Assembly: GCA_014281115.1 (NCBI GenBank)
Contig: JACONQ010000008.1
Coordinates: 1,240,001-1,304,000, forward strand
Length of the DNA stretch: 64,000 nucleotides
Origin: Laburnicola sp. R22_1
Lineage: Eukaryota; Ascomycota; Dothideomycetes; Pleosporales; Didymosphaeriaceae
Direction of reading: 5' to 3'
Shown here: piece by piece, positions 22,837 to 64,000 of the stretch
Layout: the number at the start of each line of letters is the position of its first letter
Position numbering within the stretch: the stretch's first letter is position 1
Notes under the pieces: generated by a model
The model's database searches: none
What the model was told of the DNA's origin: nothing
Seen by the model: the letters and a program-made list of their open reading frames with translations, nothing else
Translations under genes and position numbers: made by a program

Positions 22837-24700
22837 ACGTGGTTTACTAGCGAGTGACCCACACTAGTAAGCGTGCCACCTTTGCTAAGACCCCACCAAA
22901 CCATTTTATTTATTATTAGACTGCGTCGCAACACTACTTAAAAATATATACTAAGTTAATGTATCTAATTTAGATTCTTTCTCTTTAACTCCCTGGTAGG
23001 TTTGCGTATTATATCTAGGTTGCCTACAGATGCCACAACGCTATTAAGTTAATGGCCCTATTATAGCGCGACTAGTACCTAATAACTATTTACCCTTCTT
23101 CTGTCCACTAGCGTCCTTAGGAGTGGCTAGCTAAGATTCCTCTACTACTATAAGTGATCCCTAATGCTGGATATACCTCCTTTTACGCGATTTTCGCCTT
23201 ATAGTCTTCTTAATTGTCTTGCAAAGGCCTGTACTTTTATCTAACACTAGTACCTAACTATGCATTGCACTTAGAGCGCCTTTTTTAAGCTTCTTAAGCA
23301 CCTGTATAGTTAAAGTTAGTAATAAATCGAAGTAATCTCTAATTCTCTTACAAACTAGTATTAATTGCGCCTTAAATTCGCGTAGGTTACTTGGTGTTTT
23401 AGACTTCTAGGTGGTAGGCTCTTTAATAGGCAGACTAGGTGTACGGATGCGGATGTTAAGGTGCTGCAACACCTTCTCTGGATTTAATAGGACTAGCCCA
23501 GTACCGCGAAAACTACCCTTAATTGTCTCTGCAGAAAAAACCTTTAAAAACGCAGTTTTAAAGGCTAGGAGAAACTTAATCTTTATAATGTGGGTTATTA
23601 GCTAACGCGCTAAGCCTAAGATCTTAGCACTATATGTCTTCTTTAGCGGGGAGAAATAGCCTACATCTAATAGCTGTAGTAGGTATAACAAATATAGCGG
23701 CATATAGAGAGTAATAATCTTATATTTCTTATAGTAATCCTAGAACTTAATTAAGTTATAGCTCTTATAGCTATTAATAACTAGCAGCTAATAGGTTCCT
23801 TTAGCGCGTCCCTTTATATGCGCGTTAAAGTGTTTTAACTACGCAATACCAAGCTTATTATTTGTCTAGCTGTTCTCGCTAACAGCGATTACCTAATCGC
23901 CAGGAATTAACGCGTCTTTGTACTAGGTGGAGATGTAACGCTTGCCAGCGTAGATAATAAAGGGAGGAATTGCCTATTTAGCAGCGCAAATACCCTAAAT
24001 TACTGTAATTTACTAGCGGTCGCCTGGCTGTATTAATTTGGGTTTCGCACGCCTCTCTAATGCTGTGACCATAAGCTAAGACCCTATAACCCCTATTAGG
24101 AAGCCTAATTTATTAAAGTTGTAGGTGTCCTTATTCGTAATGCCGTACTTGACTTTAATGCCCTCTATAAGCTTAAACCACGCATTTATAACCTTAGGAT
24201 CTTTCTATTATACTCTCTAGTTGTTATATAACTAAGACTAACGCGTTTTGACTTTATATCTGCGCTTAATAAACCTATCTATCTAGTTAATACTAATAAG
24301 TGGTTTTTCTCTCTGTAAACGTAGTAAATTAGCCATTATGCGGATTATAAGCTTTGTAGGAGAGAATCCACGCGTGTCTAGTTTAATTATATAATTAACA
24401 AGCGCCTGCTCCTTAAGGAGAGTAAAATTCTTTAATTTAGGTAGGTTATCGCATTGTGCAGTCATTCCGTTGCGTCTTTAATTAAGCGTTCTGCGATTAA
24501 CGTTATATAGCCCTGCTGCTGCTCGCTCTATAAGATTTAGATCTTGTTTAATAGCTCTAATAGCAATAAGTAACCGAGCTTTATTAGATAGCTTAGAAGA
24601 CATAGTAGGTGGTTGTATTATAATGGTATTATTAGTAATGGTGGGGTCTTGGCAAAGGTAGCGCGCTTACTAGTGTGGGTTACTCGCTAGTAAATCACAT
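22837..24700 (-). mobile_element. Fot1/pogo-like DNA transposon (RIPed)
   Basis: 1864 bp flanked by TA at 22835-22836 and 24701-24702. Inverted ends of about 60 bp start ACGTGGTTTACTAG on the left and ACATCACT-type RIP variants on the right (outer strand ATGTGATTTACTAG). The inner part contains TAAGACCCCACCA, shared with two further elements in the window. The left end holds two 17-bp-spaced units at 22846-22862 and 22863-22879, both starting ACTAG and ending CCAC. One transposase gene fills the element on the minus strand. Length, TA target and gene content fit the Fot1 group. Confidence 0.93.
22951..24603 (-). pseudogene. Fot1-like transposase (RIPed)
   Basis: 551 codons in one frame from ATG at 24603 to TAG at 22951, with many in-frame TAA/TAG. 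The N-terminus has a psq/CENP-B-like HTH segment (SNKARLLIAIRAIKQDLN; then KEQALVNYIIKLDTRGFSP). The DDE core is damaged: YNFNKLGF near 24115 (first Asp to Asn) and VINSYKSYN near 23765 (second Asp to Asn), while LLQLLDVGYF near 23670 keeps the third Asp. The C-terminal CCHC knuckle reads CGICRQPRYNTQTY, so its His and last Cys became Tyr. In the family this enzyme cuts and pastes the element into TA sites in the nucleus. Confidence 0.9.
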
Positions 24701-24702
24701 TA

Positions 24703-25082
24703 TAACTTTCTATCTTTTTATAGTAGAGTATAGTCTAAGTAGTTAAAGTAGAGTTACGTTTTATTAGTACCTTATATTATATAAAAGCAGCTTAAAGTTT
24801 TTACTTATCTTAAAACGCTATAAAGAAAGTTATAAAGAAAGCTATAAAGATAAGAATAAGTAGTACCCCTTTTTAAATAGTATATTTATAGTTATATAAA
24901 ACTATTATCGCTATTTCTTATATTAAGACTTATTTGTTATATCTAGCGATTAACTAAACCGCGTTCTAAATAATACTCTACAACTCTAAAAATAGTAGGA
25001 TAGTGCTTTTTAAACTATTAATAAAGATATTGCTAAGCGCAATCCCCTACTAGGAAAGAATAGCTTCCCTAATAACTTACTA
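24703..25082. other. RIPed intergenic DNA
   Basis: AT-rich RIPed sequence between two transposons. It contains a short direct repetition of TATAAAGAAAG(C/T) near 24820-24850. No gene seen. Confidence 0.6.
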
Positions 25083-25084
25083 TA

Positions 25085-26578
25085 ACGTACTTTGCACTCG
25101 AGTCGATTATTCTATTAAGTTAATTACTTTGCCAAGACCCCACCAAAACGTACTATTAGTAATAGTACAACGCGATACCTTAACCACATAATAAACTACT
25201 AGCGTTAAAAGAAGCGCGTATACAGCTTGCGATCCAGGCTATTAAACAAGACGCAACACTCTCTTAGCGACGCGCTGCAGCCCTCTATAACGTCTCTTAA
25301 AGTACACTTAGCAACTAACGCGCCAGAAAGACGTTTAGACGCGACTGCGCACTCAACAAAATAAGACTTACTATAAGAGAGGAGCAGGTAATTGTGTAGC
25401 ATATACTCGACCTAAACGCGCGAGGATTTCCGCCCCGGCTTAATGCCATAAAAGATATGGCCGATTCTTTATTAGCTGCACGCCACTACAAGCCAGTTGG
25501 CTAGAGATAGCCTTATAACTTTGTTAAGCGCCAGCTAAAGCTTTAAGTTAAGTTCAATCAAAAGTACAACTACAAGAGAGCCCTCTAGAAGGATCCTAAG
25601 GTAATATAAGGCTAGTTCTAGCTTGTAGAGAATATAAAGGCCAAGTATAGTATCCTAGATAAGGACACCTACAATTTCAACGAGTCTAGCTTTATAATAG
25701 GCATAATATTGACTAGAGCGGGTAGTCACAGAATCTAAGCATTAAGGATAGCCAAAGCAGGTGCAGCAGGGCAATAGGGAGTGGACAATAGTTATCCAAG
25801 GCATTAACGCAATAGGGTGGTGGATCCCACCCTTTATTATCTTTGGGGGCAAGCACCACCTCTCCGCCTAGTATAAGGAGAAGGATCTACCTTATAATTG
25901 GGTTATTGCAGTCTCTAAGAACGGCTGGACGACAAATGAGCTTAGTCTACAATAGCTAAAGTACTTTAATAAGTATACAAAGAGGCGTACTACTAGTAAA
26001 GCACGTTTACTTATTATTAATGGCCACGAAAGTTACAACTCGCTCAAATTCTAGGATTACTACAAAAAGAGTAATATTATTACTCTCTATATGCCTCCAC
26101 ATTCGTCGCACCTCTTACAGCCACTTAACGTGGGTTATTTTACGCTGTTAAAGAAGGCGTATGGGCGCTAAGCCAAGAATCTAATGCGCAACCACATCAC
26201 GCACATCACTAAAATCGAGTTCCTACCTTACTTTATTGCTGCTTTTAAGGCTTCAATTACTAAAAGTAATATTAAAGGAGGCTTTTAAGGTGCTGGCCTA
26301 GTGCCCCACAACCCAGAAGTTGTAATATCGCAGCTTAACGTCCGCCTACGTACGCCTCCACTTTGTACTATTCGCGATAGTACATAGGAGTCGCAAACTC
26401 CGCGAAATAGTACAGAACTTAGGTCGCAATCGACGCTAGTTAAGCAGAGAATTTAAAGGCATATAGATAGTTCTCCAACTTATATAGTTAAGGCGGTGGA
26501 AAAGCTCGTCAAAGGCGCCAAGCTAATAGGGCATTCTTTGGTGTTGATAACCAAACGCAACGCCAAACTTTAAGCTAC
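25085..26578 (+). mobile_element. truncated Fot1-like transposon (RIPed)
   Basis: Left end begins ACGTACTTTGC after TA at 25083-25084 and ends with TTTGCCAAGACCCCACC, as in the element at 30897-32769. The end carries two 17-bp-spaced units, about 25098-25114 and 25115-25131, whose differences are mostly C/T and G/A. The right part is missing: sequence homologous to the 30897 element stops at 26578-26580, where a different transposon begins, and what lies beyond that transposon is not the missing part of this one. Confidence 0.88.
25175..26578 (+). pseudogene. Fot1-like transposase, truncated and RIPed
   Basis: Closest relative in the window is the transposase at 31050-32678. The start codon is ATA at 25175-25177, from ATG by RIP. 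The HTH part (KEARIQLAIQAIKQDATLSQRRAAALYNV) is recognisable, followed by YNFNESSF near 25680. An extra G in the run near 25721-25723 shifts the frame relative to the 30897 element. Downstream are GWWIPPFIIFGGKHH, LIINGHESYN (catalytic Asp to Asn), SHLLQPLNVGYF (Asp to Asn) and ITKRNAKL just before the break. The C-terminal zinc knuckle is missing because the copy ends at 26578. Confidence 0.88.
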
Positions 26579-26580
26579 TA

Positions 26581-28705
26581 CCATGGGTGCGGGGTCAATG
26601 CGCGCCGAGCCTTAATGCGCGCTCAACACCAAACCAGCTCAGCTAAACTTAAAGCTGCAGAGCTCCCTACAATTGCTATTATTATAAGAATTTCTAGTAA
26701 TAAGGTCTATAAATCTTAATAATTAATTATAGCTATAAAAATCTACTTGGAGTTCTAATATTCCGGCCCTGGCGCGACCGAGGCTGTAGAGGCTGTAATA
26801 CAGCACCTAAGGTCTCAGCAGCATCTATAGCCTTATTAATAAGCTTTTTTTCCCTTATGCTCTGCTTAGGTAGCCTTAATGCCTTTTTGCTACCTTTCTT
26901 AGCTATTTTTATACAATTCTTGTAGTATTACTAAGCCCTGCCAGCCTGCTGCTTCTAGGCTCGCTTAGCTGCCTAATCCGCCTTTGCCTTCGCTTAAGCT
27001 GCCTAAGCCTTAGCCCTTGCAACGCGCTTCTCTTAGAGTAGTCTAGCCTTTAGCTGCTAGCTAGCCCTCTAAGCCTTAGCTGCCTTAGTTTTTTAGAGTA
27101 CTAGCTGCTCTACCTTAGCCTCTTTTTGCTGTAGACAATCACGTGCCTCCTGCACCTTCCTTAGGGACTAGAAAACAGCACCCCCTAAGTACTTAGTAGG
27201 CTGGTTATCCAGCAAAGGCTTGCCACGCTTCCTACGCCTCTTCTTATTGCCTAGTGCTGCTCTTAGTCCCTTATTTTCATACTGTAGTAGCTGTTTTTGT
27301 ACGGCAATTAAGTGCACTGTTCGGCTTAGCTTCTTTGCCTTATTACTATTCCCTATATCTACTGCAGCCTTTAGGAGCTGGTCGATTTTCCTCTAGTTAG
27401 ACGCGCTAAGTACTAAGGTTAAGCTTTCTCTTAATTCCTACTTAGGTAGGCTAGTCTTAGTAAATCTCTTAAGTATAACCTCTAGGTTGAGTAGTAATAT
27501 GCCAGTAGCCTCAAAGGCCTTAATAATTAATAGCTTCCTAAACAAGCTACCCTAAGCCCTCTAGAATAGGCTAAAGAAGTCTCTTTTTGCAATTAACAAT
27601 AGTCCCTAGCACCTGTGTAGAAAGACTAAGAGCTTAGCTAAGTAGGTAGTAGAGAGAGGCTTAAACATAATAATATTAAGCAGCTGTAGCGTATACGTTA
27701 AATAAGACAGAAATATAGCTAGGAGTATTCTATTCTAGTCATAGTAATTAATAAAATCCATAGTAAGGTAGGATCTATAGCTGTTAAGAATAAGTAGTTA
27801 GTAGGAGCGTCTAGCTTTCTCCTTAGTACAGCGATCGAACACCTGCTTAAGCCACGCGAGGCCTATCTTATTATTTGTCTAGCCAGAAGGCGATAAGGTA
27901 ATAAAGGCTAAGTGTTCCTAAGGGTTAATTTCTTTAACCCAGCTTAATTGTAGGCTACCTAAGGCAGCCTAATAGATAAGGGCTGAATCTAGAGCCAATT
28001 TATTAGCGCATATGTAGGCTAGGAGCGAAATTCACTCACAGCTACCATCCTAAATAGCCTGCCTCACCTCCTTGCTCTCGTACAGCTGCCTACTAAAGAT
28101 CCGCTTTAAGCGAGTAGTAATGCCTAGTAGGATGCCTTTTTCGTCCATATTGTACGTGTGCTGAGGCTCGATATTGTATTAGCTAATTTTCTGCTGTAGT
28201 AGGTCGAAATATAGGCTGTACTTTGTCTCTAAGTTAGCTTTGTGGCGATTGCTATCCATTCCAGCTATCCATCTTAAAACTAGATTAATGCTATATCGCT
28301 TAACAAACTAATTAACCTAGTACATACTAACGCTTGTTTTGGCTATATAGGCTGTAAAGTTCTGGATTATTTGCCGTGTAGGTGGTAGGCCTCGCTAAGT
28401 GAGTTTTTTAATATAGCGTATAAGCTCCTGCTCCTATTAAGGGCGAAGTTTTCGTTGGTTGATTCCCTCAGCTGTACGCGACTGCGTTACAGCCTGGTGT
28501 CTCTAGGTGAGCGTAGAGCGTACAACGCTATGCTCCTTCGCGATTTTTGTATAGTTAATAGAGTCTCCAGGTTCTTGCAATTGTATCGCTTCAAGCGCAG
28601 CCTCAATTGACCCCATATTGGTAGCGATAGGTGGTGTTAAAGCTTGAGGTGTTTTCGTGTTGAGCGCGCATTGAGGCTCGGCGCGCATTGACCCCGCACC
28701 CATGG
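26581..28705 (-). mobile_element. 2125-bp pogo-like transposon, copy A
   Basis: Bounded by TA at 26579-26580 and 28706-28707. The 49-bp inverted ends start CCATGGGTGCGGGG and match at all but one position (a C/T change). Each end has two 17-bp-spaced units beginning TCAATGCGCGC. Copy B at 36555-38679 has exactly the same length. One long transposase gene lies on the minus strand. The two flanks belong to different Fot1-like elements. Confidence 0.95.
26733..28616 (-). pseudogene. pogo-like DDE transposase, copy A (RIPed)
   Basis: 628 codons in one frame from ATG at 28616 to TAG at 26733 (the next stop, TAA, is two codons on). The N-terminus MGSIEAALEAIQLQEPGDS leads into an HTH with SYTKIAKEHSVVRSTL-like spacing, then a CENP-B-type domain (LIRYIKKLT, RGLPPTRQII). 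The DDE core has YNMDEKGILLGI with the first Asp intact, LILNSYRSY (Asp to Asn) and LLNIIMFKPL (Asp to Asn). The last third is Lys/Ala/Arg-rich and probably coiled-coil, ending near GRNIRTPSRF. It is homologous over its length to the transposase at 38817-40676. It lacks the CCHC knuckle of the other Fot1-like proteins here. RIP stops make it inactive. Confidence 0.88.
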
Positions 28706-28707
28706 TA

Positions 28708-29569
28708 CTTATTCTAGATGGCCATAAGAGCCACCACTCCCAGGATTTCAAGGATTATTGCCTGGAACAGAAGATCCTAACACTCTGTATGCCAGCGCAC
28801 TCATCTCATATCCTCCAGCCGCTTGATGTGGTCTGTTTCGCGCCACTAAAGCTAAAGTACTCCCAGCGCGTGCGGGACTTGGCGCGCCAACGCGTCTTTC
28901 ATATCGACAAAGAGGGCTTCCTACTGGCCTTTCGCAACGCGTTTTTTAATATATTTACACTAGAAAACTGCAAGAAAGCCTTTAAGGCCTCTAGGCTTGT
29001 TCCTTTAGATGCGTTAGTAGTGGTAGATCGCCTTAATGTGCGTATTCACACTCCACCTCAGGGTAACCCCACCAGATACACTATGGCAAGCCAGGACCCC
29101 AAGCAATACCCTCGAGTTTGGATCCCAGTCAAAGCTCGTACGCGACTCTTTTATTCGGTCTCCACCCAATGCTAAATCGAGCTACTTATAGCTCATAAAA
29201 GGTGCTGAACTTATACTCTACCATAGTGTACTTTAAGAGACCCGCATTAAGGAACTTAAGGAGCAAATTAAGGTTCTAACGAAGCGAAAAACGCGTAAAA
29301 GAAAGCGCATTTAGAAAGGTAGGACGCTAGGCTTTGCTTAGGGAGCAGATTTGGGAGTAGAAAGCCCTTCTATTAGGGTGAAGTTGTCGAAAAGGGCGCG
29401 AGGTAGTGGTGAGGGAGAGGCAGGTCCCTTAACACAACGCCGCTGTGGGAGGTGTGGAGAGCCTGGGCACAACGCAAGGACCTGTCAGATAGATAAAGAG
29501 ATAGAGGAGGAGTTAGATGTTACCCTTAGCGGCTTATTTTCAGATAGTGTTGATAGTAAATCAGAGTGA
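28708..29569 (+). pseudogene. Fot1-like transposase, C-terminal half
   Basis: The preserved part begins at the second catalytic Asp (LILDGHKSHHSQDF) and includes the third (LQPLDVVCFAPLK); both are intact. The first 156 residues are open to a stop at 29173. The rest continues in another frame (SPPNAKSSYL, IKGAEL, KRKTRKRKR), so a single-base indel near 29150-29165 broke the gene. It ends in a CCHC knuckle CGRCGEPGHNARTC and an acidic tail, with TGA at 29567-29569. The DNA-binding N-terminal half and first Asp are missing, cut off by the junction with the 2125-bp element. Confidence 0.88.
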
Positions 29570-29962
29570 TTTTATTATAGGTTACTATAAGGCCAAAAAT
29601 GATGGGTTAACTTCATCTTGCAATAGTACGCACTCAGTGACTGAAAATTAGATAAAGTACTACTTAAGATATAGTATGCTTCACTGCGAATCATAATAAG
29701 TATACTATATATTGCCTACGTATAGTATGGTAGATAATATATCGTATATTATAGGGAGTCTTGTTGTAAGTTCGTACTGCCAAGAAAGACTCCTTAGCTT
29801 TGCGCGGCTGCAGCAGCCGCGCAAAGAGGCTGCACGACGTAAAAAGTAGATTAAATAGTAACTTGGTATATTGTAAGTTATAGTAGGTTATTATGAGTCA
29901 CTATGAAGTAACGTTGGTGGTGTTCTATAATGAGTTATGAGGGACCTCGAAGTTGCCAAGAA
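29570..29962. other. 3' untranslated part of Fot1-like element
   Basis: No gene. It contains AT-rich short palindromes around 29700-29750 and the GC-rich perfect palindrome at 29798-29826. Confidence 0.5.
29798..29826. repeat. 29-nt perfect palindrome, 14-bp arms
   Basis: CTTTGCGCGGCTGC and its exact reverse complement are separated by one A. It is very GC-rich, in contrast to the AT-rich surroundings. It could form a stable hairpin or cruciform, or be a terminator-like or protein-binding site in the 3' part of the transposon. Confidence 0.9.
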
Positions 29963-30010
29963 AAACTGTCCGGCGGACTGATCTGTCCGGGCTACTGATA
30001 GAATATGTTA

Positions 30011-30894: not shown

Positions 30895-30896
30895 TA

Positions 30897-30962
30897 ACGT
30901 ACTCCACAACCGAGCGACTCACCCAACCGAGCGACTCACTTTTGCCAAGACCCCACCAAAAC
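30897..30962 (+). repeat. 66-bp inverted end with two 17-bp units (left)
   Basis: Tip 30897-30906, unit one 30907-30923, unit two 30924-30940, inner segment 30941-30962. The two units differ only in their last base. Its exact inverse is at 32704-32769. Confidence 0.97.
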
Positions 30963-31049
30963 ATGTACTATTCACGACAGTACAGAGTCAATACGAACTA
31001 TTATCAATAGTCTAAATAGGCCAATCTATTCAGAATCTACTTCTGCAGG

Positions 31050-32678
31050 TTATTTACACGTTGTTCTATTGTGCCCAGGCTCGCCGCAGCGTCCACAGCG
31101 CCGTTGAGTTGGCTCGCCTCCATCAACGCGCGCCCTCTTCTTTGCCTTCTTGCCATCACTGCGCGCCGCAAAGTCCTTTAGAGTAGCCAGCCGCTGGCCC
31201 TCTTTAGCTGTAAGAGCTCCTTCTTGCTGCAATCGCTTTCTTTTGTGCGATTTACGTCGCGTGGCGGCCTTATTAGCAGCTTAAAGTTTGGCGTTGCGTT
31301 TAGTTATCAACACTAAAGAATGCCCCATTAGCTCGGCGCCTTTGACGAGCTTTTCCACCGCCTCAACTATATAAGTTGGGGAACTATCCACATGCCTTTG
31401 AATCCTCTGCTTAACCAGCATTGATTGTGACCCAAGTTCTGTACTATTTCGCGGAGTTTGCGACTCCCATGTACTATCGCGAATAGTACATTCTGGAGGC
31501 GTACGCAGGCGGACGTCAAGCTGCGATAGTACAGCCTCTGGGTCGTGGGGCACTAGGCCAGCACCTCGAAAGCCTCCTTTGATATTACTTTCAGTAATTA
31601 AAGCCTTAAAAGCAGCAATAAAGCAAGGTAGGAACTCGATTTTAGTGATGTGCGTGATGTGGTTGCGCATCAGATTCTCGGCTTGGCGCCCATACGCCTT
31701 CTTTAACGGCGCAAAACAACCCACGTTAAGTGGCTGCAAGAGGTGCGACGAATGTGGAGGCATACAGAGAGTAATAATATTACTCTTTTTGCAGTAATCC
31801 TGGAATTCGAGCGAGTTGTGACTTTCGTGGCCATTAATAATGAGCAAACGTGCTCCACTAATAGTACGCCTCTTTGTATGCTCATTAAAGTGCTTTAGCC
31901 ATTGCAGACTAAGCTTATTTGTCGTCTAGCCGTTCTCAGAGACTGCAATAACCCAATTATGAGGTAGATCCTTCTCCTTATACCAGGCGGAGAGGTGGTG
32001 CTTGCCCCCAAAGATAATGAAGGGTGGGATCCACCACCCTATTGCGTTGATGCCTTGGATGACTGTTGTCCACTCCCTATTGCCCTGCTGCACCTGCTTT
32101 AGCCGTCCTCGACGCTTAGAGCCTGTGACTACCGCTCTAGTCGATATTATGCCCATCATAAAGCCAGACTTGTCGAAATTGTAGGTGTCCTTATCTAGGA
32201 TACCATACTTAGCCTTTATGTTCTCTATAAGCCGGAACTAGCCTCGTATTACCTTAGGATCCTCCTGGAGGGCTCTCTTATAGTCGTACTTTCGATTAAA
32301 CTTGACTTTAAGCTCTAGCTGGCGCTTAACAAAGTTTGGAGCCCAGTTATGGCCCACAGGGTCGCGATGCCGCTTAGCTAGCAAAGAATTGGCCATATCC
32401 TCCACGGCAGCAAGCCGTGGCGGGAATCCTCGCGAGTCTAGGTCGAGTATATGCTGTATAATCGCCTTCTCCTCTCTTACAGTGAGCTTTATTGTGTTGG
32501 GTGGGCAGTCGCGTTGGAAGGCGATTCCAGCGCGTCGTTAGCTAAGGGTCTTTTGAGGGATGTTATAGATGGCGGCAGCGCGTCTTTGCGAAAGTGACGC
32601 GTCTTATTTAATAGCCTGGATCGCAAGCTGTATACGAGCTTTGTTTGACGCTAGTAGTTCGTTGTGTTGTTGAGGCAT
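31050..32678 (-). pseudogene. Fot1-like transposase, five RIP-type stops
   Basis: 543 codons in a single frame from ATG at 32678 to TAA at 31050, interrupted by about five TAA/TAG codons that fit former CAA/CAG/TGG. In order: HTH (ARIQLAIQAIK; RRAAAIYNIPQKTL), CENP-B-type domain (EEKAIIQHILDLDSRGFPP; NFVKRQLELK), and the DDE core. In the core the first Asp is kept (YNFDKSGFMMG), the second is Asn (LIINGHESHN) and the third is Asn (LLQPLNVGCFAPLK). A basic linker and CCHC knuckle CGRCGEPGHNRTTC close it. Length and order match full-length family members. It would bind the 17-bp-unit ends and cut at TA; here the Asp losses alone predict inactivity. No intron signature is needed. Confidence 0.95.
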
Positions 32679-32703
32679 CGCGTTGTACTATTGATGGTAG
32701 CAC

Positions 32704-32769
32704 GTTTTGGTGGGGTCTTGGCAAAAGTGAGTCGCTCGGTTGGGTGAGTCGCTCGGTTGTGGAGTACGT
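32704..32769 (-). repeat. 66-bp inverted end with two 17-bp units (right)
   Basis: Exact reverse complement of 30897-30962. Units lie at 32743-32759 and 32726-32742, outer tip at 32760-32769, followed by TA. Confidence 0.97.
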
Positions 32770-32771
32770 TA

Positions 32772-36552: not shown

Positions 36553-36554
36553 TA

Positions 36555-38679
36555 CCATGGGTGCGGGGTCAATGCGCGCCGAGCCTCAATGCGCGCTCAA
36601 CACCAAACCAGCTCAGCTAAACTTGAAGCTGCAGAGCTCCCTACAATTGCTATTATTATAAGAATTTCTGGTGATAAGGTCTATGAATCTTAATAATTAA
36701 TTATAGCTATAAAAATCTACTCGGAGTTCTAATATTCCGGCCCCGGCGCGACCGAGGCTGTAGAGGCTGTGATGCAGCACCTGAGGCCTCAGCAGCATCT
36801 ATAGCCTTATTAATAAGCTTTTTTTCCCTTATGCCCTGCTTAGGTAGCCTTAATGCCTTTTTGCTACCTTTCTTAGCTATTTTTATATAATTCTTATAGT
36901 GTTGCTGAGCCCTGCGAGCCTGCTGCTTCTAGGCTCGCTTAGCTGCCTGATCCGCCTTTGCCTTTGCTTGAGCTGCCTAAGCCTCAGCCCTTGCAACGCG
37001 CTTCTCTTAGAGTAGTCTAGCCTTTAGCTACTAGCTAGCCCTCTAAGCCTTAGCTGCCTTAGTTTTTTAGAGTACTAGCTACTCTACCTTAGCCTCTTTT
37101 TGCTGTAGACGATCACGTGCCTCCTGCACCTTCCTTAGGGACTAGAAAACAGCACCCCCTAAGTACTCAGTAGGCTGGTTATCCAGCAAAGGCTTGCCAC
37201 GCTTCCTACGCCTCTTCTTATTGCCTAGTGCTGCTCTTAGTCCCTCATTTTTATGCTGTAGTAGCTGTTTTTGTACGGCAATTAAGTGCACTGTTCGGCT
37301 TAGCTTCTTTGCCTTATTACTATTCCCTATATCTACTGCAGCCTTTAGGAGCCGATCGATTTTCCTCCAGTTAGACGCGCTGAGTACTGAGGTTGAGCTT
37401 TCTCTTAATTCCCGCTTGGGTAGGCTAGTCTTAGTGAATCTCTTAAGTATAACCTTTGGGTTGAGTGGTGATATGCCAGTAGCCTTAAAGGCCTTAATAA
37501 TTAATAGCTTCCTGAACGAGCTACCCTAAGCCCTCTAGAATAGGCTAAAGAAGTCTCTTTTTGCGATTAACGATAGTCCCTGGCACCTGTGTAGGAAGGC
37601 TGAGAGCTTAGCTAAGTAGGTAGTAGAGAGAGGCTTAAACATAATAATATTAAGCAGCTGTAGCGTATACGTTAAATAAGGCAGAAATATAGCTAGGAGT
37701 ATTCTATTCTAGTCATAGTAATTAATAAAATCCATAGTAAGGTAGGATCTATAGCCGTCAAGAATAAGTAGTCAGTAGGAGCGTCCAGCTTTCTCCTTAG
37801 TACAGCGATCGAACACCTGCTTAAGCCACGCGAGGCCTATCTTGTTATTTGTCTAGCTAGAAGGCGATAAGGTGATAAAGGCTGAGTGTTCCTAAGGGTT
37901 GATTTCTTCAACCCAGCTTGATTGTAGGCTACCTAAGGCAGCCTAATAGATAAGGGCTGGATCTAGAGCCGATCCGTCGGCGCATATGCAGGCTAGGAGC
38001 GAAATCCACTTACGACTACCATCCTGAATAGCCTGCCTCACCTCCTTGCTCTCGTACAGCTGCCTACTAAAGATCCGCTTTAAGCGAGTAGTAATGCCTA
38101 GTAGGATGCCTTTTTCGTCCATATTGTACGTGTGCTAAGGCTCGATATCGTATTAGCTAATTTTCTGCTGTAGTAGGTTAAAATATAGGCTGTACTTTGT
38201 CTCTAAGTTGGCTTTATAGCGATTGCTGTCCATTCCAGCTATCTATCTTAAAACTAGATTAATGCTGTGTCGCTTAACAAACTAATTAACCTAGTACATG
38301 CTAACGCTTATTTTAGCTATACAGGCTGCAAAGTTCTAGATTATTTACCGTGTAGGTGGTAGGCCTCGCTAAGTGAGTTTTTTAATATAGCGTATAAGCT
38401 CCTGCTCCTGTTAAGGGCGAAGTTTTCGTCGGTTGATTCCCTCAGCTGTACGCGACTGCGTTACAGCCTGGTGTCTCTAGGTGAGCGTAGAGCGTACAAC
38501 GCTATGCTCCTTCGCGATTTTTGTATAGTTAATAGAGTCTCTAGGTTCTTACAATTGTATCGCTTTAAGCGCAGCCTCAATTGACCCTATATTAGTAGCG
38601 ATAGGTGGTGTTGAAGCTTGAGGTGTTTTCGTGTTGAGCGCGCATTGAGGCTCGGCGCGCATTGACCCCGCACCCATGG
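36555..38679 (-). mobile_element. 2125-bp pogo-like transposon, copy B
   Basis: Same length as copy A at 26581-28705, with perfect 49-bp inverted ends (36555-36603; 38631-38679) flanked by TA at 36553-36554 and 38680-38681. Units of 17 bp lie at 36569-36585 and 36586-36602 on the left end. Differences from copy A are almost all C/T or G/A. Its right TA is also the left TA of the next element. Confidence 0.96.
36707..38590 (-). pseudogene. pogo-like DDE transposase, copy B (RIPed)
   Basis: Colinear with copy A. The start codon is now ATA (complement TAT at 38588-38590), a G-to-A change in the ATG, and internal TAA/TAG stops are frequent. It has the same domain order as copy A: HTH, CENP-B-type domain, DDE core with Asp losses, then a long Lys/Ala-rich, probably coiled-coil tail. 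Neither copy can supply active enzyme. Confidence 0.88.
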
Positions 38680-38681
38680 TA

Positions 38682-40764
38682 ACGTGTCCGTGCGCGTGAT
38701 GCGCGGGCAACACCAAAAACGCTCTATTGAAAACGAGGCTATAGAACCACCTACGATTAATATTATTACAAGATTTTCTTGCAGGGTAGTAAGTTAATAG
38801 CTGCAATTTATTTGCACTATTTAAATCTATCTAGAAGCTTAACGTTGCGGCCGCGGCGTGTAGATTTAGTTGGGACAGCAGATGCGCCCTCTAAGGCCTC
38901 CCCAACATCTGCAGCATTAATAAGACGTTTCTAACGCTTTCTGCTCTATAGAGATGGCTAAGAGGCCTTTCTTTTACCCTTTTGGGATATTTGTAGAGCC
39001 TTTTCTGCGTTGTAGGCAGACTTCTGGGCAGCGCGCTAAGCTGCCTTTTCAGCTCTCTCTTTCTCTTTTGCCTCCTTAGCTGCCTCTCGCGCAACACGCT
39101 TCTCCTGCTAGATCTTCTCTTTATATAACTTAGCTGCCTTCTTTAGCTCTGCTGTCTCTGCTTTTTGAAGCTGCTGCTGCTTCTCCTCCTGCTCCTTGAT
39201 AGATTAACGAACACGTGCCTCCCTTAGCTTCCTTGGTGACCAGAAGACTGCTCCACCATGATACTCCTGACGCTGTTGGAGATCTAGAGTCTTGCCCTTC
39301 TTTCTGCGCTTCTCCTTAATAGATAGTGCCTGCTTAATCCTATCCATCTCATGCTTGAGTAGCTTATTTTGGACAGATAGGTGGTGGAGCGATTGACGAA
39401 GCTTCTGTGTATCTCTACTACTCTGATCCTTGACCGCAGAGCGTATAAGCCTATCCACCTTTCTCTAATCATAATCGCTAAGTGATGATAGAGAGCTTTC
39501 TCTTAAATCTTGAGATTTAGTGAATCTATTAAGGATTATATTCGGATTAGGTGGTGATATGCCTGTTGCCCTAAAAGAGCTAAGGATTTTTAATTCCTTA
39601 AAGGAAGCCTTCCACGCATTCCAGAATAGGGGGAAGAAGTCGCCTTTAGTGATAGAAGCTAGGCCCTGACTTCTATAGAGGTGTGTTGACAGTTCTGTTA
39701 AGTAGGCTGTTAATAGAGGCTTGAATATCGCAACGTTAAGTGGCTAAAGCGTATGAGTTAAATAAGGAGGCAGGACGGCAAGCAGGATCTTATTCCAATC
39801 ACAGTAGTCAATAAAGTCTATAGTGATATGGGAGCCGTGGCCATCTAGGATTAGGAGTTAATATAATTGTTAGGTCTTCTCTCTTGTACAGCGATTAAAC
39901 ACCTGTTTAAGCCAGGCAAGCCTAATATTATTGTTCGTCCAGCCAGAGGATAATAAGGTAATAAAGACTTCATAATCTCCTGCCTTAATATCCTCTACCC
40001 AGCTTGATTGGATGCCCTTGTTAGCAGCCTTATAGATAAGGCTTGGTGGCAGAGCTGATCTATCAGCGTAGATACATGCCAGGAGCGTGATCCACGCGCA
40101 ATTGCCATTCTGGAGTAATGCCCTAACCTCCTTCTTCTCCCACATTCGTCTGCTGAATATCCTCTTTGATCTACCAACAATACTAATTAGGAAGCCTTTC
40201 TTATCTATATTATAGGTATAACGAGGATCTATCTAATCTTAATCAATCTTGCTGTGTAGAAGGTGGAAATAGAGGCGATATTTATCCACTAAATCAGCTT
40301 TGTGGCGATTGCTGTCCATGCCAACTATCCATTGTGAGATAAGATAAATGCTGTGTTGGTTGATAAAGCGGGTAACCCAGCTCTCGCTAACTGGCTCTTT
40401 CGCTATTGCAGAGGCAAAGTTCTGTATTATCTCTCTAGTAGGAGGTGTATGTCTCTCTGTGAGTCTTTTGATATATCGTACAAGCTCCTGCTCTTGCTAC
40501 GGGGTGAGCTTTTGCTGGCTAGAGTTCTTGACTTGTGTAGGGCGCGTTATCCCTTGATGCCTTCGGATCAATGTAGACCGTACAACACCATATTTAGCAG
40601 CAGTTTTTGTGTACGAGAAAGTTTCGCCTGGCTCTATTGATTCAATATCATCAATCGCCGCTTAAATTGGATCCATATTAATGGAGTTGTCGCGTATTGA
40701 AAGTAGGGCGTTTTGGTGTTGCCCGCGCATCACGCGAATCCGCGCATCACGCGCACGGACACGT
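38682..40764 (-). mobile_element. 2083-bp pogo-like transposon, lightly RIPed
   Basis: Bounded by TA at 38680-38681 and 40765-40766. The right end (40711-40764) reads inward as tip ACGTGTCCGTG, two 17-bp units starting CGCGTGATGCGCGG at 40737-40753 and 40720-40736, then ACACCAAAA. The left end has the same tip at 38682-38692 but only one 17-bp unit, 38693-38709, followed directly by ACACCAAAA. One transposase fills the minus strand. It is related to the 2125-bp family at protein level but has different ends. Confidence 0.95.
38817..40676 (-). pseudogene. pogo-like DDE transposase, near full length
   Basis: 620 codons in one unbroken frame from ATG at 40676 to TAG at 38817, with about a dozen RIP-type stops. 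The HTH region (SYTKTAAKYGVVRSTLIRRH) is followed by a CENP-B-type domain (ELVRYIKRLTERHTPPT; SWVTRFINQHSIYL). In the DDE core YNIDKKGFLISI and LLILDGHGSHIT keep two Asp, but PLNVAIFKPL has lost the third. A conserved ESWVxRF-like and GWTNNN segment lies between them. The C-terminal third is Lys/Glu/Ala-rich with strong coiled-coil character, then GRNVKLLDRF. It is homologous end to end with the 2125-bp family transposase. Confidence 0.92.
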
Positions 40765-40766
40765 TA

Positions 40767-48021: not shown

Positions 48022-48023
48022 TA

Positions 48024-54812: not shown

Positions 54813-55244
54813 GGCGCGCGATCGAGATTGCCGCTGTAGGTCTACAGCGATTGCTGCTAGTATAATAGGGAGGGTTCTGCGCAAACGAATACGTGGGGAG
54901 CTGCGAATGCGAGCTATGGGGTAATAATAACAGCAAGAGTATGGAGTGACGTTATAGCGATGTTTGGCAGCCTCTGCTAGCAGTTTTTTCTGCACCTCTG
55001 GGGCACCAGTAGAAACTGCTAGCAGTTTTGCTGTTTTAGGCAGGTTGTTGTCCGTGCGAAGCCACTAAACGCTACCAATACGCCACCCTGGCAGAATTTT
55101 CTGCTAGATTGGCTCCGGAGGTAAACACTAGGCCGCCAGCAGCTTCTTAGAAACTGCCAGGGGCACGGAAGGTAAACACTAGACCCTTAGCAGCTTCTTA
55201 GAAACTGCTGGCAAACTGCTAAGCGGGAGGTAAACACTGCCTAA

Positions 55245-58200
55245 ATTAATTAGTTCTACTACACAGAAGAGTACTATATTAAAGCTGCTTACGTTAGAGT
55301 CCTATTATTAAAGTAGTTTATAGTTAAACTAATATTAAATTTTTTAGACGCTAGCTACTATCCCCTTTTATAGCGGTCTAAGCGCCACTTTTTAATATAA
55401 TCTTTAGTATTCTTAAAGGTGCTAATTAGCGTCTATATTTTCCTAGTATTAATTATAGCATTTATTATCTAGTGCTCTAAGAGAAGATTGTTGCGTAGTA
55501 ATCTTAGCATCTCTACTTTTACTATTTTAATATAGTTAGTGCAAGGAGAAAATACTAATAAGTATATTCTTAATATAGGAATAGTAATTAGCTTTAGCTA
55601 AGAAATAGTAGAAGGTCTACTATAAGTTATCTAGAATTTATAAATGGCTAGTGTAGAGTAGAAGGCTATATTCTAAAGCGTCTAAGTGTAGTTATCCTAG
55701 TGTATTGTTATTATTAAGAGTAAGTAGTAAGAGGCTAGGCTAGGCTTAGAGTTAACTCTCTAGAAAAGTTCTCTCCTGCTATTTTTATTGCTATTCTTAC
55801 TACTGTCCTCGCTGTTATTCCTACTATTATTTCTGCTATTATCCTTTCTATTATTTGTCTATTTACTAATATTCTCTTTTTTAATTGTATAATTATCTAA
55901 ACTATATTTACTCTTGTTCTTAATAGCTTTCTTACTCCCCTTAATATTCTAGACAATAAGACTAAATAGCAATATAACTCTTAAAGTTAACAACTTAATA
56001 ATAAACCTAGTAAAAATAAGAGCACTAGACTAATATGCTAAATATGAGTTTAAGATAGTTATTATAACACTTGCTTTGCTTTTTATCTAGATAGTAAGTA
56101 AAAATTAGAGATAGTAATTAGAAGTAGAGTGGGGTGTAAGCTAATACGTAAGAACGTACTATAATATACTCTATAGCCTATTATTAGTAATAAAATAGTC
56201 TAAGTAAGTGCCGCATATATATATGCATAGGCCAAGGCGTTAAATCTAGGTACACGTAGACTAAATTAATCTACCACGTAGTAAACAATACCTATAGCTA
56301 TCTTATTGCTTGGCTTTAATTGCTAGCACTAAGCCTATGCCTACTACTAATATCTAGAGTATGTAATAAAAAGTTTATTAATTAAAAAGGTATAACCAAG
56401 GGCGAGAAGGTAGTCTTTATTACCTTTCTTAGTAACATAACATTTGTAATTAACTCTATCTCCTCTTTTAACTAATTAAGAAACTAAGTAGTAAGCGTAG
56501 CTATTATTCTTAGTCTGTTGGATTCCTACTTAAAGAGTAAAGGCGGAAGAATTTAATAGATTTGTAATTGTAGGATCCTATTCTTTATAGCTATTAAGCT
56601 AATACGTAAAGAAAAAGAAAGAGAAAGGCGTAAGAATAGTAATAACTACTATACTAAGAATAAAATAGAGTAAGTTAAGACTTCTATATATATAATGTAA
56701 TAGAAGAAATGTAAAATAAGAGGCGTGCCTCTAATATATAGAAAGCTAGAAATATAATATAGCTAGTAGCTAGCAAAGGCTAGAATAGCTGCAATTAAAG
56801 AAAATATTAGAAATAGATATAACTAAAGTATGTAAAAATCTAGATAAAACACATATTTCTTTTTCTAAAGCTTTATAAACATACGCTTATTTTTTTAAGA
56901 TTTTTCTATTTTATATATAATATTTTAAACCTCTATATAATACGTCTATATTTTTTCGAATAATATAGTTATAAAGCCCTTTAGAGTATACGTCACTTTT
57001 ATATTATTCTATACTAGATAACTCGCTTATTTAGAAAATTTAGTTACATTCGTATAAATAAGGGTAGAATAGTCTAGAGTCTTAACATTAAGAATTTTAT
57101 AGAGTATAGTTAGACAAGTTAATTCGTATTACTTAGACTTAACTAGACTTAATACGTTCGGATCTATACTAGTAATTAATTCCTAATAGTAAAATAATTA
57201 GATCTTAAAAGCTTATAAATAAGAGTACACACCAGGATAGAGATAATAAATATAGTTCTTTATAGAAGTATAATTAGAAGGAGAAATAAAGTAAGAGCGA
57301 GGATAAGAAAAATAAAGTTAGAGCGTTAATAACGTGCAGCTACCTATAAAGAATATATAGAAAGGCAACTAATAAAGAATAAAAGGTTAGAGGCAAACCT
57401 AGAGCATAGAATATAAGGGAACTAGTAAAGAACTAAAAGGTAATAGACTAATAAACATTTTAGCCTTATTAGAAGAGCGTGTATATATATTACAAAAATT
57501 AGCTATCTTTATCCTTCTAAAGCCTTTCTTTTATTAGTTATAACTAAATAATAATCTAACTACAATAGTAGTTTCTATAGGCGGCTTTCTAGAATATCTA
57601 AATAGACGCTACTAGGTAGAGATTTATATTCGCTTAGAAGAGTATTAGTAACTTAAGAAGTAATTAGTAAGAGTAAAGGGGCAGAACTTCTATACGTAAG
57701 AACTGTAACTAATAATTAGTCCACTTTTAGTTTAGGCTAATTAGCCTAAAAATTAACTCTAATTATTAGTTATAGTTACACATAGCCCTATATTCTATAC
57801 TTAGGGTTGTAAGCGCGTATAGACCTTCTAGAGGTCTTTGTTACTAGGGATAGGAGATCCTAACTTAGACGAAAGCTCTTAGTAATACTGCTCCTTTTAC
57901 TCTTACTACTTTTAGCTTTTTAGTATAAATCTCTCTATAGCTATTATTATTATTTATAACGCGACTAATAAAGACTTATTCTAAGTGCCTAATCTTAATA
58001 AACTTTATTCTAAAATTAAGAGTTTTTCTTGCCTACTACAAAACTCTCTCACTAACACAATAAAGAAATAACTTAAAAGCTTAAATAGTTTTACTAGGAC
58101 GCTATAAAGATAGTTAGAAAACCCCCTTACTATAATTATTATATTGTTAATATTCGGTTTACTAGTAGTAAATAAGGATAACTAGATCTTTAATATAAGC

Positions 58201-61200
58201 TTTAGCGTATCTTAGAAGAGCTTAGTTTAGTTTCTAATTATAATAAATCTTATCAAACTTAACTTACTATAATAATAGAAAATAGAACAAAGTGGCATAC
58301 TAACTTAATTTAAAAGTACGTTAAAAATTTTTTATATAGTCTAATTAGAGGACTACACGCTATACTACTATAAATAGACTAAGGTTTCTTACTTTTAAAA
58401 AGAGTATTATACTAGACTAGCAATATAGTCTTTTAGTTCTCTTTATAATTTTATATTAATTTTTAGATATAATAAAGTACTCTAATCTTAATAATAAGTT
58501 AGTATTACCCACACTATCTAAAGTACGTATAGTGGCTTCTAATCTATTATCCTTTATATAGGATACTATAACTATTTACAAAGGCTTAGTTGCTAAAGCT
58601 TTAAAATAATAGTGTTTAGGGTTAAATAGAGTGGCTAGGGCGAAAGATAGTAAATTTAGGATCCTTTCTTTAGTTCCTTTACTAACGCCTTAGGCTATGC
58701 GGCTCTAATTATCGCTTTAGTTCCTAATGCCACATTCTGCCCTAATCTATAATGCTAAGGTAAGTTCTTACTCTTAGGCGGCTCTAAATATACTTATTAA
58801 TAGTTCTTCAATTTAGATGCACCTATTTTATAAAGATAATCTATAAATTAAACTATAAGATAAGAGGCTTAATAATAAAACACAGAGTCTTTTAGTAGTG
58901 TAGATAGTATAAATATATCTAATCTATTCTTTTAGAGTAATAGAGATAATAGTGCATACTAGTATATAGTAGATTAGTAGTTAGTTAAAACTCTAAATTT
59001 ACACTAAGAGTAGGGTCTAAATATAAAGATTAGTTACTTATAGATAATATGTCTATTAGTAAATTAAAACGGCTTAGTTATAGCACTAGGCTAGTTAAAT
59101 ATAGATGTTATCGCTTTACTACACACTTTATTTATACCTCTAGGATTATTAAACCTATAGTGCTCTAGGGCAGCGCATCTACATTTAATACTATATCTAA
59201 ATTTAGGGGCCATAATAGAAAGTTTATAAAACTAACCTATATATTACTAAAACTAATCTCTACTAAATTCTCTTTAAGATAATACACATAATAGCTTTAC
59301 TCGCTAACTATTTAACTATACTAGCGTAAGCTAGTCTACTCTCTTATAACTTATATTCGAATCTAGCAATAGTAGTATTTACTTTTCTTCTTTCTTAAAA
59401 TTTATATTCTATGTTTAGAGTAATAGTATTTCTTTTTCTTCTTTTTAGAGCTTATATTCCAATCTTAGAGTAATAGTATTTCCTTTTCTATTTTTATACT
59501 ATTAGAACCTATATTATAAAGCTAACCCTATGGCTAATAAATACTATATAGTTAGCGGCGTAGAAGATAGCACATTTAGAGGTAATCTTTTTATAATATT
59601 AATTAGGTAAATGCTTAAGTTTAGTAATATACGCGTTAGGGTTTATAATTCTAATTAGTATAATAGCTTAATTAGTGTCGCCTCTAATATATACTCCTAG
59701 TGGCCTAGTAGGTTAGTAAATAATAAATATAGATAACTAGTACTTACTTAGATATATATACCGAATTTTATATAGTAATATATATTTAGGAAATATTTAA
59801 GTATAACACGCTCCCTTATATTTTTTAACATATTTACCTATTCATCTATTTTATATTTCTCTAGAGAAAGTGGCCCATATCCTAATATTTCTATAGTATA
59901 TTTCGCTTGCAGCTTCTAAGCCTCTAAGTTAGTATCTCTATCTATTTAAGTCTGCTCTAGATACGAGGACATAGATATAGCTATTATAGAGTTTTCTAGT
60001 TTCTAATTATATTCTACGAATTAAGCTTTTATATAAGTAGCATAGTTAGTATATATAATCTTAGTAAATATAATAGTACTTACTTTAGAATAGTTTGCAA
60101 GACTTACTTATATATACTATTTATAGTCTCTATTCTCTTAAGATATCTTAGTAGTAGAAGAATAAGGCAGCCTCTCTAGAAAATAAAATATCCAATTCTT
60201 TTAATAGAGTCTAATAGGCGAGATACCTTCTATAATACGTAGTAAACTACGCACTAAGCTTAAGTAATATATTATAAAATAATACGTTCTTTCTAAGGTG
60301 CAGTATATAGCAATCCTAATATTACTACTACTTTTACCTCATTTTTCTTACTCTCTTATACTTAGAAAGCGCGCTTACTCTAAATCTTCTAGCGTGCTTT
60401 TACTCTATCTAAAGTGTAGTTACGCGCCTATAGCTAGTATAACTAGCGTATAAGAAAATCGCATATAGCGTTTTTACTTTACTAAATATACATTATTGCT
60501 ATTACTATTATTTCTCTAATATCTCTTAAAAGTGTGCCTTATTAATTAATTCTATACTTAAGAAAATTTTATAAATTATTATTACTAAAAGTAAACGCGA
60601 TTTTCTTGGAATATTTTACTACTAGCTAAGCTTCTCTAGCTTTACTAAGTATATAGTATTAGTATTTTACTATATTTGTATAATAGTATTAGCGGCGGCT
60701 AGTTAATTACTAGGCATTAGGATTAATACTAAGCGATCCGCGTATGACTAATATAGGCATACCTAATTTTCTTTCTTAGTTATAAAAGCGAAGGAAGTAA
60801 CATAGAGTCTAAATAGAAGTAATAAAATAACTACCACTTAAAGTGCCTAATTTTAGGCCTATATAGGGCCTTAAGTAAATTGTGCTTAGAGATATTACTT
60901 TATAAATCTTTTATTACTATACTAGCACAGATTATATTAGTCTAGTGCTCGCTTTATATATATACAATTTAATACTATAAAAATTCTAAGAAAGGCCTAT
61001 ACTACTTTCCTTTCTCTATAGTTAATTAAATATAAAGGAATTTTACTTATATAAAATATAAATGGCATAAGTATATTATTTACTTTTAGGCCTATAGAGA
61101 AGTATATCTTAACTTAAAGCTTTTAAGTAGTATCTATCCTAGTTAGTGCAAAGTTACCAGTAACTATAACCTCTACTTATAGCCTAGAAATAAATAATAA

Positions 61201-63760
61201 CATAACTCTTTTAGGTCTATTACTATAAAAGGTTGCGAATATTCTATCCTTATCTACACATATTCTACCTACTACTAAAAACTCTTTAAAATAATTGCTA
61301 AGCTACTATTATTAGTCTTAAGCATTATCTATATACTGTAGGCAATATGCAATATTATAAGCGCTATAAATATTTCATAGATTTTTCGTCTTGATTATAA
61401 TAATAATATTATTATTTGCCCTATTATTAAGTATTTATCTCCTTCTTATTAATGCCTTGTCCTAGTTACTAAATAATAAGAGAAATAGTATGGGTCTATA
61501 AGTCTATAAGAGATAATTATTAAATGCCTCTCTGTTTAGTATGCGCGTGGGGCACTTTATAACTATATAAAAGTTATTAAAACTATAATTATAGTGTTAG
61601 AAGGACTACTAGTCATAATATTCAATATAGAATAAAAAGCGAAGTAGATATAACTCTAGATATGGGTTAAAATAGTTTATTCTTAGATATAGAGGGGTTA
61701 CTATAAATATAAGCTATAGAATTTTTAGAGGCAACTAGGTAATTATCTTACTTATTAATTAGAGTAGAGTATAATAGTATGTATATTACTAAGAGCGATT
61801 ATATAGTTAGAGCTAATACTAGGTAGTAAGAATAGTCTTACTTATAGCTTAGCATAAGATGCTAGTGTTTAGCCATTCCCTAGGCTAATAAGGAGCGCTA
61901 ATATTATTCTGGGCCAGCCTTCTTAGAAGCCTAGGGTCTTTTTGCTAAAATACTTTAAAGGCTATTTAGTAGTAGTATAATAAGGGGTACGTTTAATATA
62001 TACGTAAAAAAACCTAGTTGCTATATTAGAGAGGCAGATTTTCTACTCTATTATATAGGCCTTATTTATAAAAAGATCTCTAGACTAAATAACTAAACTC
62101 TATTATAATATAATAAGAACTAGTTTTAGCTATATAACCTCTTTGCACTATGTCCTATATATTTTAGCCTATAAATAAGAGCACGTCACAAGTATGCCTA
62201 TAATAAAAAGCTTTACATATTAAGAGACTACACAACTATATAATATTAGCAAAAGAAAGAGAAATAATATATGCTAATTAATAAGGGAGTACTATATAGT
62301 TTATTGCATATATAATATTATCCAGCGCTTTCGCTTATACAAGGGGCGGTTTAATACTTATACGTAATAAAGTAGCCTTTTATAGTAGTGGAGGTAATAT
62401 AATATTCGTTCTTTTCTATTATTATTAGTAGCTATCTTTATATTATTGTGGTGTTTAAGCTATAAGTTATTAATCTTATACTATGCTTAATAGCCTAGTG
62501 TATAAGACGTTAATAAACGTGTCTAATAGAGTTAGTTAATATACTAGAGTCTATAGCTTATTATATTAATTTTGCCCTTGCTAGAGTAGATAGGTAAGCT
62601 ATAGGATGTAGGCACGTAGCGCCTAACACTATAAAAGTATATACGTATCTAATAATAATTGTAAGTAGCATTATAGAGAAATTGCGTGTTTTTTATAGGT
62701 AGGGTATTTTAGCGTAGTGTATAGAAACTATATACGCTAGCTTATTAAATCTTTATTATAATATGTTCCCAACCCTCTAGTGTTTCTTACTTAAGACTAC
62801 TATAGTGGATAGTCACTTCTTTATTAGCTCCTTGCGCAGAAAAGATAATAGATCGCTAATAAATTACGTAGCTTAGCCCTAAATCTAATATAGCGTCTTT
62901 AATTTTCTTAGTAAGACTCTAGCAATGTCTATACCTTCTTTACCTCCCTTACTCCTCTTACCTTTAATATCTCCTTTGTATTATAAGATTAATTATAGGT
63001 TATTACGTTAGTAAAAGGGTAAGTAGGTTTAGCGGCTATATAGAATTATTTCGTAGATTCTATAGGGGGGTATTAGCACTAAAGAGACTAGTCTCGTAGT
63101 TAGGCCTTTAAGATAGCGCTTTGCTAGGGGTGGGTGTATTCTAATATTTATATATTAGAGTTAAATTAATATATTAGAAGACCTTATTTAGAATTTACTC
63201 TATAACTAGCTATTAAGGTTGCAAAGATGCCTAAGTAAAAGATACTCTCTAGAGACTTCTATCGCTCCTTACCTTTCTATATAGGCCTAAGCCTATTATT
63301 AGCTAGCACTAAATATGTCGCTTGCAACTTTAATTAGATTTTTAATAAAAAGACTATCTTTTAGATCCTTGCTAATACTACTAGTTACAGCTATATATAG
63401 TTATATAAATATGAATCTCTAATAAGTTCTTATATAATCTCTTATCTATTAATCTAAAGATATTGCCTCTTATAGTCTTTATAAGGTAGCCCCTTACATA
63501 TTAGCTCTAGGGCGTAAAAAAGAGAAAAAAGATAGTAAAGAAATTTAAGAAAGGTAAGAGCCAAGGAAAGCGAAGTAGTAGTAGAGAAAATAGGAGATAA
63601 TAGGAGTAGTAAGATTTTAGGCAGTAACGCGCAAAGTATAAAAATGCGTAGGAAGATATTAGAAGTAAAGGAAAGTAAAAAAAGACAAGCTCTAAGTGTA
63701 ATAAAAAGGGAAGGTTCTTATAGTAAAAGAGATATAATAAAGTAGGGCAAGTTAGCCACT
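55245..63760. other. RIP-degraded repeat DNA, identity not recovered
   Basis: About 8.5 kb of AT-rich sequence with CA/TG depletion and no open frame of note. Protein-like frames exist (for example + 57440-58100) but cannot be assigned. At 63480-63740 a Lys/Arg-rich frame ends in KCNKKGRFL, vaguely like a Gag tail; this is too weak to name an element. No LTR or inverted-end pair was found. Confidence 0.55.
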
Positions 63761-63762
63761 TA

Positions 63763-64000
63763 ACATGGATGGCAAGCGAGCGGCGCAGGCAAGCGAGCGG
63801 CGCACCCCATCAACTTTTCGCACCTTTGAAGTCGCGCAGCTCAACCACAATATAATATACTATATAGATTTTGATACAATAGATTAAGCAGTATTTAAAG
63901 TATCTTTTTTGCACGTACGTGAGTTATGCCCAAGCTCTCTGCACCTTGTGCAGCGCGCCAGAGCCTGGCGGCTCAGGCCTGATCGCTCTCCACTTTGACG
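63763..64000 (-). mobile_element. Fot1-like element entering from right edge
   Basis: Left terminus begins ACATGGAT after TA at 63761-63762, followed by two identical tandem 17-bp units GGCAAGCGAGCGGCGCA (63771-63787, 63788-63804) and then CCCCATCAACTTTT. Beyond it the minus strand encodes the C-terminus of a transposase. The sequence is barely RIPed, unlike its left neighbour. The remainder lies outside the window. Confidence 0.88.
63894..64000 (-). CDS. Fot1-like transposase C-terminus (partial)
   Basis: Open minus-strand frame running off the right edge and ending in TAA at 63894-63896. It reads RQSGERSGLSRQALARCTRC and so on, with a CCHC knuckle CTRCRELGHNSRTC at 63911-63952. The same knuckle closes the other Fot1-like transposases in the window. 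No stop interrupts the visible 35 codons, so this copy might be less damaged; the catalytic part is outside the window. Confidence 0.8.

Follow-up and report, generated by a model that had tools for sequence, protein, structure and literature searches.

We analysed a 64,000-nucleotide window of the genome of Laburnicola sp. R22_1 (positions 1240001-1304000 of contig C25; 63.9 Mb in 26 contigs), an A+T-rich stretch with 36% GC, together with the ends of Fot1/pogo-like transposable elements in this window and in the genome as a whole. These ends carry direct-repeat units with a 17-bp period beside a terminal TA, and within each unit we distinguish a 4-bp core, the register of which is given below. 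An earlier note on this DNA had named seven places with such repeats, starting at 22846, about 25098, 29963, 30907, 36569, 40720 and 63771, and we could confirm the period at all of them, with 12, 10, 12, 16, 13, 14 and 17 matches of 17, respectively; the place at about 25098 is decayed, and its undecayed relative L087 shows 15 of 17. Runs of at least 13 matches of 17 in window stretches with a GC content of at least 0.45 number eight at lag 17 and zero to two for each of the other lags between 10 and 30. Of the seven places, six belong to ends of Fot1/pogo-like elements for which transposase pieces lie in the window, and the window elements align by tblastn. As expected for Fot1/pogo, the DDE_1 domain (PF03184) was found in all three proteins tested, and the elements show the catalytic fold of Tc1/mariner transposases. 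For this family a catalytic triad spacing of DD35D is stated, and one or both of the two helix-turn-helix (HTH) domains are allowed (PMC7386202).

Reading the window from its left side, the Fot1-like element E1 on the minus strand runs from TA to TA (22835-24702) with inverted ends and minus-strand transposase pieces at 24588-22999 (tblastn), its left units lying at 22846-22862 and 22863-22879 with the core GACC at 22856-22859 and AACC at the right end. It is followed by the 5' end of a decayed K-family element on the plus strand (25083-25131, units at about 25098-25131, transposase pieces from 25199), and nested within this element is a second copy of element F1 (26579-28707, minus strand, TA to TA, inverted ends of 63 bp at 94%, transposase pieces at 28541-27471, two units per end with core GCGC). 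The family Q end (29961-30010, minus strand, TA at 30009-30010, core CGGA at 29986-29989 and 29969-29972) has 261 genome matches with up to three mismatches, several among the matches listed being inverted pairs about 2.16 kb apart, and these show that the place at 29963 is the end of a repeated element; a partner end was not found within the window, and its transposase was not seen either. Element B (30895-32771, minus strand, ends of 71 bp at 99%, tblastn 32654-31053) has two units per end with core GACT, found in the left end at 30916-30919 and 30933-30936, and its helix IPQKTLS*RRAG was matched on the minus strand at 32576. Element F1 (36553-38681) and element F2 (38680-40766), both on the minus strand and both with inverted ends and transposase pieces, follow each other directly: F1 has units at 36569-36585 and 36586-36602 with core GCGC at 36574-36577 and 36591-36594, and F2 has two units with core GCGC in its right end and one unit in its left end. 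A single TA at 38680-38681 is common to the two, one element ending where the other begins, as though either had inserted at its neighbour's terminal TA. At the right border lies the left end of element C (63761-64000, minus strand) with two identical units at 63771-63787 and 63788-63804; the element continues beyond the window and has its matching right end at C25:1305570-1305600. The N-terminal transposase frames translated for E1, both F1 copies and the K-family element of the window contain stops.

In the whole genome 150 DDE_1 matches were scored out of 2759 candidates, and 70 loci around such matches were read with their flanks, to which short 5' and 3' stretches were added. TA-anchored inverted ends were present in 66 of the 70 loci; four of these were dropped as nested or wrong pairs (L026, L055, L058, L059) and 62 were kept. 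The script used for the loci demanded the TA, and the window ends, located without this demand, also begin at TA. A genome-wide comparison with shuffled ends was run on 24 ends, one per family (23 from this genome and one foreign), over the outer 75 bp and lags 8-40, with family D counted as D1 and D2 and E1 taken from 22845, inside its tip. At lag 17 the mean best 12-bp match was 10.62, compared to a maximum over all lags that averaged 6.18 and never exceeded 6.71 in 300 shuffles. Lag 17 was the sole best lag in 20 ends, tied in two (E with 15 and 32, E1 with 21) and not best in two, namely the 5' one-unit ends of H and Lf. The statement that all ends of this type share the repeat was too strong, as the left end of the element at 38680-40766 has a single unit. 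The A/C-rich inner segment described beside the repeats is real in most families, 19 of 25 having a CCACCAAAA-like box. The foreign element, L090 on an IMG/VR contig, also shows lag 17 (12 of 12); it is the only one that IMG/VR yielded, L099 being that contig again, and genome_contigs yielded none. Its contig may be chimeric because Fot1-type transposase frames lie on both strands beside other long frames. The pogo-like family E (CAGT tips, about 1.84 kb; L001-L008, L011, L014, L069) has unlike ends behind a terminal inverted repeat (TIR) of about 25 bp, one of them with repeats at lags 15, 17 and 32.

With the T in the terminal TA set to 0, the core lies at bases 21-24 and again at 38-41, its four bases being named n4, n3, n2 and n1 in this order. 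Of the 21 families placed by the motifs CAC or GAG, 19 have it starting at index 21, and G and I, the tips of which are 1 bp shorter than the tip of H, at 20. A register defined by CAC, or by GAG if CAC is missing, gave no core for D, F1 and F2 and was replaced by the TA count; the cores of D, F1, F2 and E1 are placed by this counting rule with the index assumed. The cores of unit 1 and unit 2 are the same in 23 of 25 families, the exceptions being A10 and E1. Within clade A (12 families) every core is followed by an invariant CAC and large parts of tip and inner segment are constant, with the core being variable, and the 24 readable families of this genome have 16 different cores. Family E was excluded from the code test as its helix was not identified; its lag is ambiguous. 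Matches with an upstream repeat that seemingly belongs to a neighbouring element (L044, L045, L052, L056, L060 and others) were not used either, and neither family O (L067), with its decayed helix, nor K2 (L024), with a stop at position 34, entered the count, since their ancestral residue can no longer be told.

On the protein side, Pfam detects both HTH_psq and HTH_Tnp_Tc5 in the A5 transposase and only Tc5 in those of C and D, the psq region of which nevertheless aligns. An AlphaFold2 model of a relative with 78% identity has two three-helix units, with helices at residues 3-16, 23-29 and 34-41 (predicted local distance difference test score, pLDDT, about 90 there), so that helix 3 of the first HTH begins at residue 34. 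A low-confidence model of the DNA-binding domain (mean pLDDT 63.5) gave CENP-B (1hlv) as the first Foldseek hit with a non-significant E value of 0.14, and a sequence search against solved structures found nothing significant. Positions 1, 2, 5 and 6 of the recognition helix correspond to residues 34, 35, 38 and 39 in A5 numbering, and we refer to position 1 as X1 and to position 6 as X3. Seven A-clade transposases are 73% alike in residues 1-25 and 67% in residues 26-50, compared to 81-98% in residues 51-450, and four of the variable residues fall in the psq recognition helix.

Out of 95 helix-by-DNA tests in the tip-counted register (25 families) X1-n1 (z 5.9) and X3-n4 (z 4.1) scored highest, reaching z 6.2 and 5.7 when G and I are left out. 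With 20,000 permutations made separately within A and non-A (25 families), the p values were 5e-5 for X1-n1 and 1e-4 for X3-n4, and the earlier CAC/GAG register with 21 families, permuted within the same groups, gave familywise p values of 1e-3 and 2.5e-4. When the N-terminal residues were scanned in 20 of these 21 families (K was absent), residues 34, 38, 35, 39 and then 35 again occupied the top five of 300 residue-by-base tests. Further pairs that score, for instance n3 with residue 35 and n2 with residue 49, may reflect either contacts or history. Leave-one-out prediction in the 21 families was correct in 16 of 20 cases for X1 and 18 of 19 for X3, and prediction from other clades only in 13 of 17 and 11 of 11, respectively. 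Six families came in later, M and N from a later scan and D, F1, F2 and E1 with cores from the tip rule alone, and here 10 of 11 base calls fitted (X1-n1 six of six; X3-n4 four of five, with M wrong and E1 unreadable), for which P is about 0.001 against the best constant guess. Position 34 is R, E, Q or P in 69 of 71 full-length database homologues, which is also the alphabet of most families described here, and a pairing of Arg with G, Gln with A and Glu with C on the opposite strand would be chemically sensible for n1. These results show that the core covaries with residues of the family's own HTH_psq recognition helix.

Several points weigh against this interpretation. Both rule and register were derived by eye from 19 families, L090 among them, and the fit of the later families is a consistency check and not a blind one, because the rule table was written only after these families were known and because F1 and F2 appear to be sisters. 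The TA-counted rule misplaces G and I by 1 bp, so that they fit only after a shift, and the second core differs not only in A10 and E1 but also in D1 (CGAC, GGAC), for which D2 stands in the count. X2 is weak at n2, with 14 of 18 correct in leave-one-out and 11 of 18 across clades, and the last 75 residues of the A transposases are as variable as the helix region (67-77% identity). Exceptions are J (E with C), K (R with A), L in A4 and X, and M (A with T), and L090, the sole foreign element, agrees at n4 (T with T) but not at n1. In family K, X3 is D in L081 and L016 and N in L087; D was used, and scoring K with N weakens the p value of X3-n4 from 1e-4 to 1.2e-3 over all 25 families. The families are related, and permutation within groups as well as cross-clade pairs merely reduce the effect of this kinship. 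Finally, the DDE_1 locus L085 shows neither a 17-bp repeat nor a recognisable end in the 381 bp read upstream and may represent a family without the layout. As a separate observation, the position-1 codon in family K is CGA, CAA or TAA (L016, L087, L024 and the window copy at 25292, which has TAA), a series that looks like stepwise decay.

Kinship leads to the first alternative, according to which core and helix are linked segments that simply descend together without any contact. The distance from the first unit to the helix is indeed only about 145-175 bp and families within a clade share ancestry, but equally linked residues are not followed by the core. In 11 families of clade A the core distance correlates with the distance over the four contact residues (r 0.85, p 1e-4; r 0.86 in another set of 11 families), compared to r -0.16 (p 0.82) for the following 80 residues and r -0.25 for the residues before the helix; family M, which is out of frame behind the helix, is part of the r 0.85 set and was omitted from the other. 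Ten non-A families (G, I and E1 excluded) gave r 0.66 with p 1e-4. Cross-clade pairs with the same X3 have the same n4 in 12 of 12 cases versus 24 of 96 for pairs that differ in X3, and those with the same X1 the same n1 in 12 of 17 versus 17 of 91 for pairs that differ in X1. The cores of the opposite end, at a distance of about 1.7 kb, change as well. Single pairs point in the same direction: the 12-residue helices of A1 and A7 differ only in R/A and their cores only in C/T, those of H and C only in R/E and C/G, and A2 and A5 have TGAT as core and Q and S as contacts in common, though A5 is closest to A4 in residues 130-530 (97%). We therefore regard common descent without contact as unlikely. 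A second alternative, in which the repeats are by-products of slippage with an inherited period and no binding role, would explain exact losses and gains of 17 bp as well as A-clade units that are alike at only 11-15 of 17 bases. However, core plus CAC are identical in both units in 11 of 12 clade A families, the core changes between families in an otherwise largely constant tip and inner segment, and slippage alone does not predict a match to the helix, which makes this explanation very improbable. That a host protein instead of the transposase reads the units is hardly credible, as a single genome contains 24 families with 16 cores and each core covaries with the helix of its own family.

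Each 17-bp unit is thus likely to be a recognition site of the element's own Fot1/pogo transposase, with the helix reading the core, a conclusion drawn from sequence comparison. The earlier note had taken each unit as a binding site of a bipartite HTH transposase and the pairing of sites as a fixed design; reading by the transposase can be retained as an inference from the covariation of the core with positions 1, 2, 5 and 6 of the first HTH, and the fixed pair has to be given up since ends carry one, two or three units. From 22 short 5' stretches five showed one unit (L076, L077, L081, L082, L098) and one, L085, no recognisable end, and the 3' ends read for four of the five one-unit loci all have two, the window element F2 being the mirror case with one unit on the left and two on the right. 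Family C has 69 exact two-unit ends, no exact one-unit end and one three-unit end, and family H also has one with three units (C6:2007183 and C20:2897307 for C and H). Two units per end are therefore usual but not fixed, and the gains and losses observed proceed in steps of 17 bp.

In the model that we propose, the HTH_psq recognition helix would lie in the major groove over n4 n3 n2 n1, with position 1 (residue 34 of A5) reading n1, position 5 reading n2 together with n3 and position 6 reading n4. One protein would occupy each unit, and the second HTH (HTH_Tnp_Tc5) would bind its remainder. A5 and A6 (L021, L029) are alike in the linker between the cores (CCGG, not ATAG) and in the second-HTH residues GDD and KHWL, a single case that hints at the linker being read by the second HTH. 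A new core could spread to the neighbouring unit by slippage or conversion, which would also yield the exact 17-bp losses and gains, and a matching change in the helix would then found a family whose transposase ignores the ends of its sisters. Among ends that match the patterns exactly, the only ones covered by the genome-wide counts, the A1/A7 type has 29 matches, of which 23 are TT, five CC and one mixed, and the C/H type is pure in 82 of 82 (74 GG, eight CC, none mixed; two three-unit ends are counted twice). The mixed end at C3:1312398 has C in its first core and T in the second.

We slightly favour the further-reaching idea of an evolvable code, in which three or four psq residues specify the 4-bp core, set at a constant distance from the TA and repeated 17 bp further on, and new families arise by a joint switch of helix and all cores that isolates sister transposases from each other within one genome. 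If this is true, the core could be predicted from the protein and the protein from the core. How a transposase and its ends shift their specificity and stay mobile is an open question, as a single enzyme has to fit the cores at both ends, of which there are usually four. As 24 families with 16 cores are present in one genome, some of them one residue and one base apart, this path is directly testable. The rule could also serve as a draft recognition table for psq-type HTH domains and help to decide which transposase could mobilise a given non-autonomous copy.

Pot2 has direct repeats of 16 bp inside its TIR, the CENP-B box is a 17-bp site, and ends of the Sleeping Beauty type, with inverted repeats that contain direct repeats, have two transposase sites each, which are far-spaced in long repeats and not adjacent 17-bp units. 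CENP-B is named among proteins with tandem HTH (PMC10122671) and its box differs from the units described here in being located in satellite DNA (PMC7325037). The layout itself is already known: in 2010 the TIRs of Trem were described as a pair of 17-bp direct repeats resembling those of Aft1 and Tan1 (PMC2836289), and the arrangement appeared again in 2012 (PMC3441728). We did not find the residue-by-base rule that links core and helix in the open-licence literature. The 2012 account describes DAHLIAE1 and DAHLIAE2 of Verticillium with repeats of 15-17 bp in two or three units, which were read as transposase binding sites, and DAHLIAE3 as being without repeats; in its accessible part it contains no recognition rule, and the printed DAHLIAE2 unit resembles by eye that of family D (PMC3441728). 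Most Trem elements are 1.85-1.89 kb long (TremF 2.33 kb), with TA flanks in six of eight and TIRs of 42-49 bp, and Trem, Aft1 and Tan1 share with the elements described here the two 17-bp repeats in the TIR and the HTH, CENPB and DDE domains (PMC2836289). They differ in that the accessible part of their account mentions no core, no fixed distance to the TA and no link between repeat and helix (PMC2836289). Ends with one and with three units occur among the elements described here as well.

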